Translations under genes and position numbers: made by a program
In this document: positions 2,919-28,284 of the stretch, one piece after another
How the letters are laid out: the number at the start of each line of letters is the position of its first letter
Numbering within the stretch: the stretch's first letter is position 1
Notes under the pieces: model-generated
Database searches by the model: none
The model's input: the letters and a program-made list of their open reading frames with translations, nothing else
Told to the model about the DNA's origin: nothing
NCBI GenBank assembly: GCA_945878585.1
Contig: CAMDXQ010000002.1
Location: 1-63,806 of the forward strand
Reading direction: 5' to 3'
DNA: 63,806 nucleotides
Source: Akkermansia muciniphila
Lineage (GTDB): Bacteria; Verrucomicrobiota; Verrucomicrobiia; Methylacidiphilales; Verrucolacustridaceae

Positions 2919-4316
2919 CTACTTAGACAAAGTGTCCGCAAGTTTAGCGACAAGTCCGCCAAAACTTCCGTTGGTAAATACGGCCACGACATCTCCGGAT
3001 TTGAGGCGGGGAAGGATGTCCTTCAAGATTTCCTCTGGACCGGGAAGGTAGAAGGATTCGCGTCCCGCTTTGCGAATGTCGTCGGCGATTTTCTTTGGAT
3101 CGAGGCGCATTTGCGGATCGATCTGATCCTTGCGGGCGATTTCGGTGATGTAGACACCGTCAGCGGCTGAAAGGGACTCGGCGAGTTCATTCTGAAAGAT
3201 GCCCCGGCGAGTTGTGTTCGAGCGGGGTTCAAAAAGAGCCCAAAGGCGGCGTCCGGGATATTTCGCCCGAAGTGCGGCGATCGACTCCCTCAAGGCGGAA
3301 GGGTGATGGCCAAAGTCATCGACAACTGTAATGCCTTTGGCTTCAGCTCGTACCTCTAGACGACGTCTGACTCCGCGGAACTGGGGCAGGATCGAAGCGA
3401 GTTTTTCAAGAGAGACGCCCAGGGTGTGGGCTGCGCAGAGCGCCATCGAGGCGTTGTGGACGTTGTGACGTCCTGGAATCTTTAAGTGAAACTCTTGGCT
3501 ATGGAGGGTGAAGATTGATCCGGAAGCGTCCTCCTTAAGAATCTGATATCGGGCGGCGGCTTGGGGCCCTGAACCGACTTCCAGGATCTCGCATGGGGCG
3601 TCCTTAGCGACTGCCAGGGCGTTGGGGTCGTCGGCATTGATCAGAGCCAGACCATTCTGCGGAACTTGCTGAAGAAGCTGGCGAAAGGATTTCTGAATGG
3701 CGGCGAGGTCGGTGTAGATGTCGGCATGGTCGAATTCTACGTTGTTCAGAATGACTAGCTCGGGAAGGTATTGGAGGAACTTGCTACGTTTGTCGGCGAA
3801 GGAGGTGTCGTACTCATCTCCTTCCAAGACCCAGAAAGGCCCGGTTCCGTGGTGGCAGCCGGCGGGCAGGTCGAGGGGGACTCCGCCGATGAACCAGCTG
3901 GGGTGAAGTCCTGCCTTTTCCAGAAGGAAGGCAAGCATGGTAGAGGTGGTGGTTTTTCCGTGGGTACCTGAGACAACGAGATTACGAGTTTTGTAGAGGA
4001 ACCAACCCCGAAGGAGTTCGGGTAGGGAGACAAAGGGAATGCGGTGGGTGAGGACGGCTTCTAGTTCGGGGTTCCCGCGGGAGAGGGCATTTCCGACGAT
4101 CGCGAGGTCGGGTTTGGGGTTGAGATTCTTTTCCGAGTAGCCTTCGTGAAAGACGATGCCTTGATCGCGAAGAAAATCGGACATGGGGGGGTACACGGCT
4201 TGGTCGGAGCCGGTGACCTGAAGTCCAATTTTTCGGAACATAGCCGCGACGGTACCCATCCCGGTCCCAGCGATGCCCAGGAAGTGGAGGTGTTTAAGAT
4301 GGGCACGATCGAGCAT
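2919..4316 (-). CDS. mpl: UDP-N-acetylmuramate:L-alanyl-gamma-D-glutamyl-meso-diaminopimelate ligase (Mur ligase family)
   Basis: HFLGIAGTGMGTVAAMFR, GTHGKTTTSTMLA, LEGDEYDTSFADKRSKF (Mpl-type), DDFGHHPSALRE. Confidence 0.92.
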   Translation of the reverse strand: MLDRAHLKHLHFLGIAGTGMGTVAAMFRKIGLQVTGSDQAVYPPMSDFLRDQGIVFHEGYSEKNLNPKPDLAIVGNALSRGNPELEAVLTHRIPFVSLPELLRGWFLYKTRNLVVSGTHGKTTTSTMLAFLLEKAGLHPSWFIGGVPLDLPAGCHHGTGPFWVLEGDEYDTSFADKRSKFLQYLPELVILNNVEFDHADIYTDLAAIQKSFRQLLQQVPQNGLALINADDPNALAVAKDAPCEILEVGSGPQAAARYQILKEDASGSIFTLHSQEFHLKIPGRHNVHNASMALCAAHTLGVSLEKLASILPQFRGVRRRLEVRAEAKGITVVDDFGHHPSALRESIAALRAKYPGRRLWALFEPRSNTTRRGIFQNELAESLSAADGVYITEIARKDQIDPQMRLDPKKIADDIRKAGRESFYLPGPEEILKDILPRLKSGDVVAVFTNGSFGGLVAKLADTLSK

Positions 4317-24035: not shown

Positions 24036-24117
24036 TGGGCCTGAGAGGACTTGAACCTCCATGGGTTACCCCAACAGATCCTAAGTCTGTCGCGTCTGCC
24101 AGTTTCGCCACAGGCCC
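24036..24117 (-). tRNA. tRNA-Leu (anticodon UAG)
   Basis: Minus strand GGGCCTG/CAGGCCC acceptor stem, D-loop TGGCGAAACTGGCAGACGCG, anticodon loop CTTAGGA, long variable arm, T-loop GGTTCAAGTCC, discriminator A. 82 nt. Confidence 0.92.
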
Positions 24118-25549: not shown

Positions 25550-26446
25550 TTAAGGAACGACTTCGACGGGGACACCGGGCCGGACAGCACGGACTAGTTT
25601 CGTGGCGTTCCAGTTGGCTAAACGGAAGCAACCATGGGATCCAGTTCTGGAAATATCTTCAGGTTCAGGAGTTCCGTGAATGCCGTATCCTTGGAGAGAC
25701 AGACCGATCCAAGCGGTACCGACAGGGTTATTTGGACCGGGCGGCAACACCAGCTTGTTGGTAATGCCCTCCTGTTGGGCGGCTAGGGCCAGAACTTTGG
25801 GGTCGAAAGTGTAGTTGGGGTTGGGGGCGATATTCGCAACCGTGAGAGGTTGATTAGGGACTTTGGCTTTATCTGCTGCGATAGAGCAAGGAAAACAGGC
25901 CACTACCTTGTTGTTGGTGTCGAAGGCAAGGAGGGTTGTTTCGGAAATCATGATCACGATCCTAGAAACGGGTGGCAGCTTCCGTGTTCCCTCCAGGTTG
26001 GGGAGGGTGAGTTGAGTGCCTGCGACGAGATTCGTCACCCCTGGATTCAGCTCCTTCAAAAAGGACGGTGTGGAATGTGTTTTTTCCGAAAGTATTTCCC
26101 AGGGGTCATTATAATCGAGGATTGGGACTTTGCTCATCGCCAAGAATCCTTTGGGTTTGGGGATGACGTGAAGAAGGTCCTCGCCAGTCACGGTGTAGTC
26201 CGCATACGCGTCCCCAGGTTTTCCGAGGTTGATACGGGTTTCGATATCGATCTCTCCTGTAGTGGCGAGCCCCCGATGGATTTGGAACTGGGTGATGGCA
26301 CGTCGACTCCGTTTCGCGAAATGGCCATCGACTGTACCGCAGGAAAAATTCAGCCGGTCGAGAAGAGTTTGCCATCCTGCCATCTCAATCGTATCGCGAG
26401 GTTTATCGGTGGCGATGGGTTCAGCCCGACGAACCTCTTTGCCCAT
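25550..26446 (-). CDS. L,D-transpeptidase (YkuD/ErfK) catalytic part with peptidoglycan-binding-like and LysM-like region
   Basis: GTAWIGLSLQGYGIHGTPEPEDISRTGSHGCFRLANWNATKLV contains the HGT...SHGCxR YkuD motif. MAGWQTLLDRLNFSCGTVDGHFAKRSRRAITQFQ is PG-binding-like. No export signal in this frame. Confidence 0.85.
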   Translation of the reverse strand: MGKEVRRAEPIATDKPRDTIEMAGWQTLLDRLNFSCGTVDGHFAKRSRRAITQFQIHRGLATTGEIDIETRINLGKPGDAYADYTVTGEDLLHVIPKPKGFLAMSKVPILDYNDPWEILSEKTHSTPSFLKELNPGVTNLVAGTQLTLPNLEGTRKLPPVSRIVIMISETTLLAFDTNNKVVACFPCSIAADKAKVPNQPLTVANIAPNPNYTFDPKVLALAAQQEGITNKLVLPPGPNNPVGTAWIGLSLQGYGIHGTPEPEDISRTGSHGCFRLANWNATKLVRAVRPGVPVEVVP

Positions 26447-26520
26447 GGAGGGGGCGGGGGGGCCAACAATCGCGGGTGGAGAAACAGGGGTGGGTGGGGA
26501 GGGAGGGAGAGGAGTCGGAG

Positions 26521-26763
26521 TTACGGGTGCAAGGTCTTCACTTTTTTTTTATCAACGGGCTGGGTGCTTTCGGGCCCGGAAAAGACTTCGGCGCTCGGGT
26601 ACTTCTTGGCGAGATCTTCGGCCCTTTGGGCGGGGGCTTTTTGGGTGGGTTCTGGCAGGCGTAGGAGTCCTCGATCACGCAGGTAAAGTGCAGCTCCCAC
26701 CAAAACCAAAGAACCCGCCACGAGACCTACGAATAGATTTCCCGATTTGGAGCGACGAGCCAT
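26521..26763 (-). CDS. N-terminal membrane anchor ORF, likely 5' part of the L,D-transpeptidase gene (joined by -1 shift at A9)
   Basis: MARRSKSGNLFVGLVAGSLVLVGAALYLRDRG is a TM anchor. The frame ends VDKKKVKTLHP*. A -1 shift on AAA AAA AAA reads SEDLAPVTPTPLPPSPPTPVSPPAIVGPPAPSMGKEVRRAEP... straight into the transpeptidase frame. Confidence 0.7.
   Translation of the reverse strand: MARRSKSGNLFVGLVAGSLVLVGAALYLRDRGLLRLPEPTQKAPAQRAEDLAKKYPSAEVFSGPESTQPVDKKKVKTLHP
26541..26550 (-). promoter_or_regulatory. A9 homopolymer slip site (candidate -1 ribosomal frameshift / transcriptional slippage)
   Basis: Minus strand GTT GAT AAA AAA AAA GTG. An A-AAA-AAA heptamer lies in the correct phase. Confidence 0.5.
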
Positions 26764-26768
26764 AGGTC

Positions 26769-27899
26769 TTAGTAAACGTCTTTCAGGTACCGTTTTTCTG
26801 TTTTGGCAAAGGTGACTGAGACCCACTCTTCCGCTTGTTCGGGGGTTTTACCGCCGTGTTGGGACACGATTTTAAGCAGAGAGGCATGAACATCTTTCGC
26901 CATTCGTTTCGCATCACCACAAACGTAGAAGTAGGCTCCTTTTTCAAGCCAACGCCAGAGTTCCGCACCTTCTTCCTCCATGCGGTGCTGGACATAAATC
27001 TTGTCCGCCTGATCTCGGGAGAATGCAGTGGAAAGTTTGTGAAGGTGTCCTGATTTTTGGGCGGCTGCAAATTCTTCGCTATAAAGGAAGTCGGTCTTTG
27101 CGTGTTGGTCTCCAAAAAAGAGCCAGTTGCGACCCGAGTGGCCATGTTTGGCCCGGTGTTGCAGGAAGGCACGAAACGGGGCAATGCCCGTTCCCGGACC
27201 GACCATAATCACGTCCCGATCAGGCGCAGGTAGATGAAAGTGGCGGGTGGGTTGAACGTACACAGGGACAGAAGCATGTTCGGCCAGATTTGCCAGGTAG
27301 CCTGAGGCAAGACCCTGTTTAGTCCGCCCATGGGACGAGTATTGGACAAGGGCGACAGTCAGGTGAACCTCGCCGGTGCGGTGATCGGGAGAGGAAGCGA
27401 TCGAATAAAGCCGAGGGGCGATCTTATTTAAGAGTCCGGGAATTTCGGAGGGCTCAAGATGGACACCCGGGGCATCGTGGAGGACGTCGACGACGTCCCT
27501 GTCGAAAACGTACTCATCAAGGTTTTTCTCGTCGGAACAAATGGCCTGTAATTTATCCTTGGCTGCCCCTGTGGCTTTTTCCGCCACGGCTTTAACAAAC
27601 TTTTTTCCGACTCGGTTGAGGATGGCGGAGGTTGCAAGGGTTTCGTGCAAGGCTTCATCGTCATGAAGACCCAACTTTTGGGTGAACTCACGAACCAGGG
27701 TTTCGGGATTCCGCGGGAGGACGCCGAGGGAGTCTCCGCACTGGTAGGTCGGGCCAGAGGAACCCAATTCGATAACGATGTGGCGGGTGTCTTTGCTTGA
27801 GCCCTGTTGATTGAGGTGCCGATTTTCCCGAAGCTTGGAGGCGAAGGGATTGTTACGACCAAAAGCGGGAGGGGTGCCGGGAGTGGGAGATGCGGACAT
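26769..27899 (-). CDS. Sulfite-reductase-flavoprotein-like / ferredoxin-NADP reductase family protein (FAD/NADPH domains only)
   Basis: YQCGDSLGVLPRNP, RLYSIASSP, VHLTVALVQY, GLASGYLANL, MVGPGTGIAPFRAFLQHR, YVCGDAKRMAKDVH. No flavodoxin domain. Confidence 0.9.
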   Translation of the reverse strand: MSASPTPGTPPAFGRNNPFASKLRENRHLNQQGSSKDTRHIVIELGSSGPTYQCGDSLGVLPRNPETLVREFTQKLGLHDDEALHETLATSAILNRVGKKFVKAVAEKATGAAKDKLQAICSDEKNLDEYVFDRDVVDVLHDAPGVHLEPSEIPGLLNKIAPRLYSIASSPDHRTGEVHLTVALVQYSSHGRTKQGLASGYLANLAEHASVPVYVQPTRHFHLPAPDRDVIMVGPGTGIAPFRAFLQHRAKHGHSGRNWLFFGDQHAKTDFLYSEEFAAAQKSGHLHKLSTAFSRDQADKIYVQHRMEEEGAELWRWLEKGAYFYVCGDAKRMAKDVHASLLKIVSQHGGKTPEQAEEWVSVTFAKTEKRYLKDVY

Positions 27900-27901
27900 G
27901 A

Positions 27902-28132
27902 TCAATTATCGTTGCCGATGGAACCGGTGGGGCAGATATCTAGGGCTCGTTGGGCAGAGTCTAACTCTTCCGGTGTCTCGGGTTGCTTGAAGAAATAAAC
28001 GTAGGTTTGATCCTCGTTATATTTCAAAAGCTTTGGGGCTTCTTCGAGGCATACGTGGCACGGAGTGCAGCTATCGTCGACGTACCATTTGCCGGGGACG
28101 TTTTCTTTGAGGATGCGGGTCTTGTCAGCCAT
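27902..28132 (-). CDS. Single [4Fe-4S] ferredoxin
   Basis: VDDSCTPCHVCLEEAPKLL...ALDICPTGSI (CxxCxxC...CP). Stop is a few nt from the reductase ATG. Confidence 0.88.
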   Translation of the reverse strand: MADKTRILKENVPGKWYVDDSCTPCHVCLEEAPKLLKYNEDQTYVYFFKQPETPEELDSAQRALDICPTGSIGNDN

Positions 28133-28199: not shown

Positions 28200-28284
28200 T
28201 GCCCGGGGCGGGGGTCGAACCCGCACGGGGATTTCTCCCCAAGGGATTTTAAGTCCCTTGTGTCTGCCATTCCACCACCCGGGC
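28200..28284 (-). tRNA. tRNA-Leu (anticodon UAA)
   Basis: Minus strand GCCCGGG/CCCGGGC acceptor stem, anticodon loop CTTAAAA, long variable arm, T-loop GGGTTCGACCC, discriminator A. 85 nt. Confidence 0.93.

Follow-up and report, generated by a model that had tools for sequence, protein, structure and literature searches.

A split L,D-transpeptidase gene, conserved across an order of Verrucomicrobia, appears to be recoded at a run of adenines

An L,D-transpeptidase (LDT) gene from an uncultured freshwater bacterium is split between two reading frames at a run of nine A's, and comparison with its homologues indicates that the gene is genuinely recoded, in a manner that appears deeply conserved and order-wide. 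We favor RNA polymerase slippage over the ribosome as the source of the shift, with a probability of about two in three. To our knowledge, few cellular (nonmobile) bacterial genes depend on slippage; here, such dependence appears to extend from the only LDT detected in the host to its orthologues throughout an order. Automated annotation will tend to label such a gene a pseudogene or an enzyme that lacks a signal.

RESULTS

Two reading frames joined by a -1 shift

The window, by which we mean the whole stretch of 63,806 nucleotides analyzed, carries the gene on its minus strand at positions 25550 to 26763. The 0 frame (26524 to 26763) opens with an ATG at 26763 and encodes an 80-amino-acid anchor peptide that has a transmembrane (TM) helix at about residues 10 to 28, the motif YPSAEVF, and the C-terminal end DKKKVKTLHP. 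Its TAA stop (26521 to 26523) lies 18 nucleotides 3' of the slip site, a run of nine A's (A9; 26542 to 26550) read as AAA AAA AAA after GAT, in the context GTT GAT AAA AAA AAA GTG. The -1 frame (25550 to 26548, including its stop at 25550 to 25552) encodes a proline-rich linker, a PG_binding_1 domain, and a YkuD L,D-transpeptidase domain with the signature HGT...SHGCFRL. Only a net -1 shift joins the anchor to these domains. The resulting trans-frame product has 404 amino acids, 74 from the 0 frame and 330 from the -1 frame, and reads MARRSKSGN...DKKK-SEDLAPVTPTPLPPS...MGKEVRRAEP.... The first-pass annotation of this DNA had described the ATG, the TM anchor, the TAA end, and the -1 shift needed at the A9 run, and all were rederived with exact agreement in frame and position. 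It had also called a TM anchor, proline-rich linker, and transpeptidase the normal layout of such an enzyme, and intact relatives in genus g10 of family f5 indeed show these three parts in one frame.

The upstream neighbor, an FAD/NAD-binding reductase gene (26769 to 27905, minus strand), ends 5 nucleotides before the ATG of the LDT gene, and the two are probably cotranscribed. The same kind of reductase precedes 25 of 36 split loci, compared with none of 63 intact loci. Two minus-strand tRNA genes, tRNA-Leu (TAA) at 28200 to 28284 and tRNA-Leu (TAG) at 24036 to 24117, flank the region.

Conservation of the split within and beyond the genus

Within the genus of the window (g1), a contig scan gave 18 close relatives at 80 to 94% identity, and a search of the family returned 20 genomes, not counting that of the window, with heavy overlap between the two sets. 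Counting as informative those genomes whose contig reaches the slip site (n = 19, including the window), we found GAT followed by exactly nine A's in every one, always out of frame. Not one of the 19 held an intact or length-variant copy. Each has a 0-frame stop 3 to 24 nucleotides 3' of the run and a -1 frame that stays open as far as the LDT. The linkers diverge widely in both length and sequence, and the run is unchanged.

Of 384 genomes searched across the class, 146 contained the LDT, and 80 upstream regions were added to the named loci. Split genes outside g1 were found in families of the order (f3, genus g4; f4, genera g6, g9, and g14; f5, genera g7 and g12; f6, genus g8; f9, genus g15) and in one family of the class (f21, genera g28 and g39). 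They represent 18 genomes, namely 17 together with the g14 genome G246, in which the contig ends before the LDT domain and the LDT sits on another contig. The runs in these genes are A9 or A10 and stand in three codon phases, mostly other than that of g1 (e.g., GTA AAA AAA AAG TAG and GAA AAA AAA AAG TAA), and wherever the two frames allow a comparison, the same -1 step is required. In these genomes, the 0-frame stop lies 1 to 24 nucleotides 3' of the run, directly after it in g9, g4, g7, g15, and g14. A run of at least nine A's marks the frame break in 36 of 36 split genes and is found in none of the 63 intact LDT genes of the class, where no run exceeds A8. On a quick tree of the LDT domain with some long branches, the split and intact states require four changes, against a mean of 28 in shuffles. 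This pattern would fit a single ancient gain in the clade of the order, followed by loss in f7, f8, and f5 g10, but the tree does not separate gains from losses. No homologue was found at an E value of 1e-3 in eight genomes of family f2 of the order, in a search run without a positive control.

In L043, a Pedosphaera-type LDT has a -1 frame break at an A8 run (around position 4000) with no 0-frame stop nearby; it was seen only once and could reflect either an indel or a site of independent origin. Locus L132 (G036) has A9 and A10 runs about 50 nucleotides apart upstream of the LDT, and only the second is at the frame junction.

Selection on both frames and on the run

Both frames are under purifying selection: across the 19 g1 members, dN/dS is 0.13 for the anchor and 0.058 for the LDT, at a median dS of about 1.5. 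The three lysine codons of the run are AAA in all 19 genomes. Every one of the 10 other invariant lysine columns mixes AAA and AAG, including a KK pair 18 codons upstream of the run. Homopolymers in the g1 loci number 124, 27, and 6 at lengths of 6, 7, and 8, followed by 16 at length 9, all of which are the slip site. Likewise, the window and g1 loci together contain 17 runs of exactly nine A's or T's, and every one is the slip site, which is more than chance would give. Selection acts on the A's themselves. The 0-frame stop is nearer than synonymous reshuffling predicts when lineages within g1 are taken separately (combined P of 1.5e-4) but not with one value per genus (P of 0.13), so that its closeness is no more than suggestive.

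Slippage by RNA polymerase or by the ribosome

The first-pass annotation had proposed programmed frameshifting or transcriptional slippage with two products, a short anchor peptide and the enzyme in anchored form, and the comparison of 37 genomes backs that proposal. With slippage during transcription, RNA polymerase passing through A9, a length of about one RNA:DNA hybrid, would generate a mixed mRNA population. Messages with the templated A9 would give the 80-amino-acid membrane peptide, and those with one extra A, a net -1 change of frame, would give the 404-amino-acid enzyme, in which the TM anchor and proline-rich linker would hold the peptidoglycan-binding domain and the YkuD LDT outside the membrane. 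The A run would then determine how much anchor stays free relative to the anchored enzyme, and it would limit the amount of LDT. We infer that both products are made. In transcriptome-wide data, slippage of RNA polymerase on A/T runs mostly adds one matching base and rises with run length (PMC5574713), and in many bacteria selection against A/T runs is evident at nine (PMC1088944). As would be looked for in a slippage gene, a homopolymer of at least nine A's, conserved among relatives, stands at the frame junction in 37 genomes.

A programmed -1 ribosomal frameshift would give the same two products, through a tandem tRNA-Lys slip on A_AAA_AAA, or on A_AAA_AAG beside the stop in other genera. 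Several features would suit it. An in-phase heptamer, A_AAA_AAA or A_AAA_AAG/C, precedes the 0-frame stop in all genomes, the run abuts that stop in the five genera named above, the step is always -1, and the host has tRNA-Lys(UUU), with both tRNA-Lys species present. In the codon phase of the gene in the window, a ribosomal site would already take up seven of the nine A's. Few motifs in Escherichia coli are as prone to shifting as A_AA.A_AA.G when a stimulator is present (PMC4066793). In 33 of 36 genes, moreover, the TM helix ends 34 to 51 residues ahead of the slip site, a position from which it could exert a pull on the emerging peptide, as happens in alphaviruses (PMC8682741). However, no conserved Shine-Dalgarno sequence lies at the usual distance upstream of the slip site across the loci, and there is no excess of 3' RNA hairpins (mean z of -0.13 in g1 and -0.53 in the others); in the gene of the window, the segment 3' of the run is less stably folded than every one of its shuffled versions, and neither the sequence nor the length of the 3' segment is conserved. 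The run is also never shorter than nine, although seven A's would suffice for the ribosome, and the first A's and the first lysine never vary. We therefore give a ribosomal shift a clearly smaller chance, although the ribosome may contribute a share. Three features favor transcriptional slippage: the lack of a conserved Shine-Dalgarno sequence or hairpin, a run that never falls below A9, and a change that always corresponds to one added A.

The L,D-transpeptidase and the need for the long product

The -1 frame matches Pfam YkuD (E value of 3.6e-13; PF03734, 50.8 bits against a curated cutoff of 23.4) and PG_binding_1 (E value of 5.7e-8). It aligns with the LDT family protein of PDB 8da2 over residues 27 to 295 (E value of 2e-46), and the catalytic motif is intact, SHGCFRL aligning with SHGCIRL of that protein. 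The match to the LdtE family, NCBIfam NF047955, scores 54, far below its cutoff of 480. The gene shares with the 8da2 protein and LdtE the combination of PG-binding and YkuD domains with the HGT...SHGC motif; we know of no frame break in either. No other YkuD gene was detected in the host genome, an 88% complete metagenome-assembled genome (MAG) from which a second LDT could be missing. As the first-pass annotation had noted, the LDT frame 3' of the run carries no export signal; only the trans-frame product provides the export or membrane anchoring expected of a YkuD LDT.

These observations bear on a reading in which the locus is not one gene but two, the first for a small membrane protein and the second for an LDT translated by reinitiation at a start codon of its own. 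Family f7 does have a standalone homologue of the small protein (see below), and many g1 copies have an ATG (MGKE) 3' of the linker. However, the start is absent or moved in several genes: L128 has no start codon between the run and the LDT domain, L106 has none for 390 nucleotides of the LDT frame, and L094 and L096 have lost the common ATG. No conserved Shine-Dalgarno sequence was found at LDT-frame start codons across the loci. An LDT made alone would lack an export signal, and two genes would leave unexplained both the frozen A run and a linker that is open in the -1 frame from the run to the ATG in all copies. We consider two genes improbable. The long product appears to be needed, since the LDT frame has no export signal, its start codons are missing or unconserved, and no conserved Shine-Dalgarno sequence precedes them.

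The first-pass annotation had also raised a phase-variable homopolymer, toggled by replication slippage between on (A10) and off (A9), and homopolymers of this length do mutate, but a frame-restoring run length occurs in none of 37 genomes, all being in the off state, and the A10 runs stand in a different codon phase that still leaves the gene split, so we reject this reading. An assembly or sequencing error, also suggested earlier, or a decaying pseudogene is likewise rejected, for although the data are a homopolymer in a MAG, independent assemblies, including the one-contig genome G061, show the same state, and the LDT frame has a low dN/dS and an intact catalytic motif. An uninterrupted frame without an A run in relatives had been named as the sign of an assembly error; such genes do occur, with anchor, linker, and LDT in a single frame or with a signal peptide, but only in the distant f5 g10, f7, f8, and the rest of the class, and the upstream regions of the close relatives all keep the split and the A run.

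The short product and its homologue in family f7

The motif xP[DEGSNR]AE[VA][FLW] precedes the run in 36 of 36 split genes, usually by 6 to 12 residues, and in full form is found in none of 63 intact LDTs. Partial forms occur in two intact LDTs, KPPAEI in L112 and AEVL without the proline in L183. A profile of the anchor segment matched a standalone 82-amino-acid TM protein with the sequence ENPDAEVF and a normal stop in two f7 genomes of one genus (E values of 2.5e-11 and 3e-11), at positions 1490 to 1738 of L272 (G171:C30) and 244 to 492 of L273 (G202:C62), both on the minus strand. The protein has no NCBIfam match. Its gene is flanked by genes whose products, named from sequence, are GspF/PilC-like (a type II secretion/pilus inner-membrane protein) and TolC-like, and the LDT of f7 is encoded elsewhere with its own signal-like N terminus. 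A third f7 genome, G145, has no anchor homologue. Standalone anchor peptides were not found in f5 g10 or f8, the weak f8 match overlapping another gene. In a phylum-wide search with the profile, only weak matches appeared outside the order; most of these lie in long frames, and, judged collectively, they are taken as probable chance TM similarity.

We read the f7 arrangement as a recoded gene that may have resolved into two genes, which would mean that the short form is functional. The short product probably has a role of its own, given a motif present in all split genes and absent from intact ones and the standalone f7 gene. More tentatively, and at somewhat less than even odds, one gene may encode two products that both function, with the A run setting their ratio: a conserved small TM protein bearing the xPxAEVF motif, and an LDT for which that same segment serves as the tether. 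Selection would maintain this arrangement in the order, and in f7 it would have been divided into the 82-amino-acid homologue and an LDT with a signal peptide. On this reading, the shift might also be modulated as the nascent anchor inserts into the membrane, about 40 residues ahead of the slip site.

DISCUSSION

The closest parallel is tssM1 of Citrobacter rodentium, in which a transcriptional frameshift at A11 was proved by experiment, with an efficiency of 20 to 25% (PMC4256274). As in that gene, a poly-A run lies just ahead of a premature stop, an added A restores the frame, the predicted forms are short membrane anchored and full length, and no Shine-Dalgarno sequence or hairpin is near. 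The authors of that study argued from the same profile before they proved slippage, and they report it for only two tssM genes, C. rodentium tssM1 and Yersinia pseudotuberculosis tssM3 (PMC4256274). Unlike tssM, the present gene encodes a cell wall enzyme, uses A9 or A10, is conserved over an order, and is known from sequence alone. In Thermus thermophilus dnaX, A9 suffices for transcriptional slippage (PMC1088944); both are A9 runs in bacterial housekeeping genes with two products from one gene, as predicted for the LDT, although the unslipped dnaX mRNA gives the long product and the unslipped LDT mRNA would give the short one. The need for an extra base to make the long product is shared with Shigella mxiE (PMC1088944, PMC4256274), but mxiE uses a U run and, like the other slippage genes of type III secretion, belongs to a different gene family. 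The LDT gene has available the A_AAA_AA(A/G) heptamer of -1 ribosomal frameshifting in E. coli dnaX and IS elements (PMC1088944, PMC4066793), but the Shine-Dalgarno sequence and stem-loop of those systems were not found.

Neither a frameshifted LDT nor slippage in Verrucomicrobia was described in the literature searched. The recoded LDT would join the programmed slippage genes dnaX, mxiE, and tssM in what is, by that literature, a new gene family and phylum. The intact relatives and the split-gene family f7 are natural controls that make the purpose of the recoding directly testable.

The host genome has only four A9 runs in 1.48 Mb, and these sites gave no general set of slippage-rescued genes. 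The three sites other than the LDT slip site are L104 and L105, which fall outside genes, and L103 (G000:C9:15581-15589), an in-frame A9 (GGKKKS) inside an FAD/NAD-dependent oxidoreductase gene. If RNA polymerase slips at A9 in the host, part of the transcripts of this oxidoreductase would also be frameshifted.
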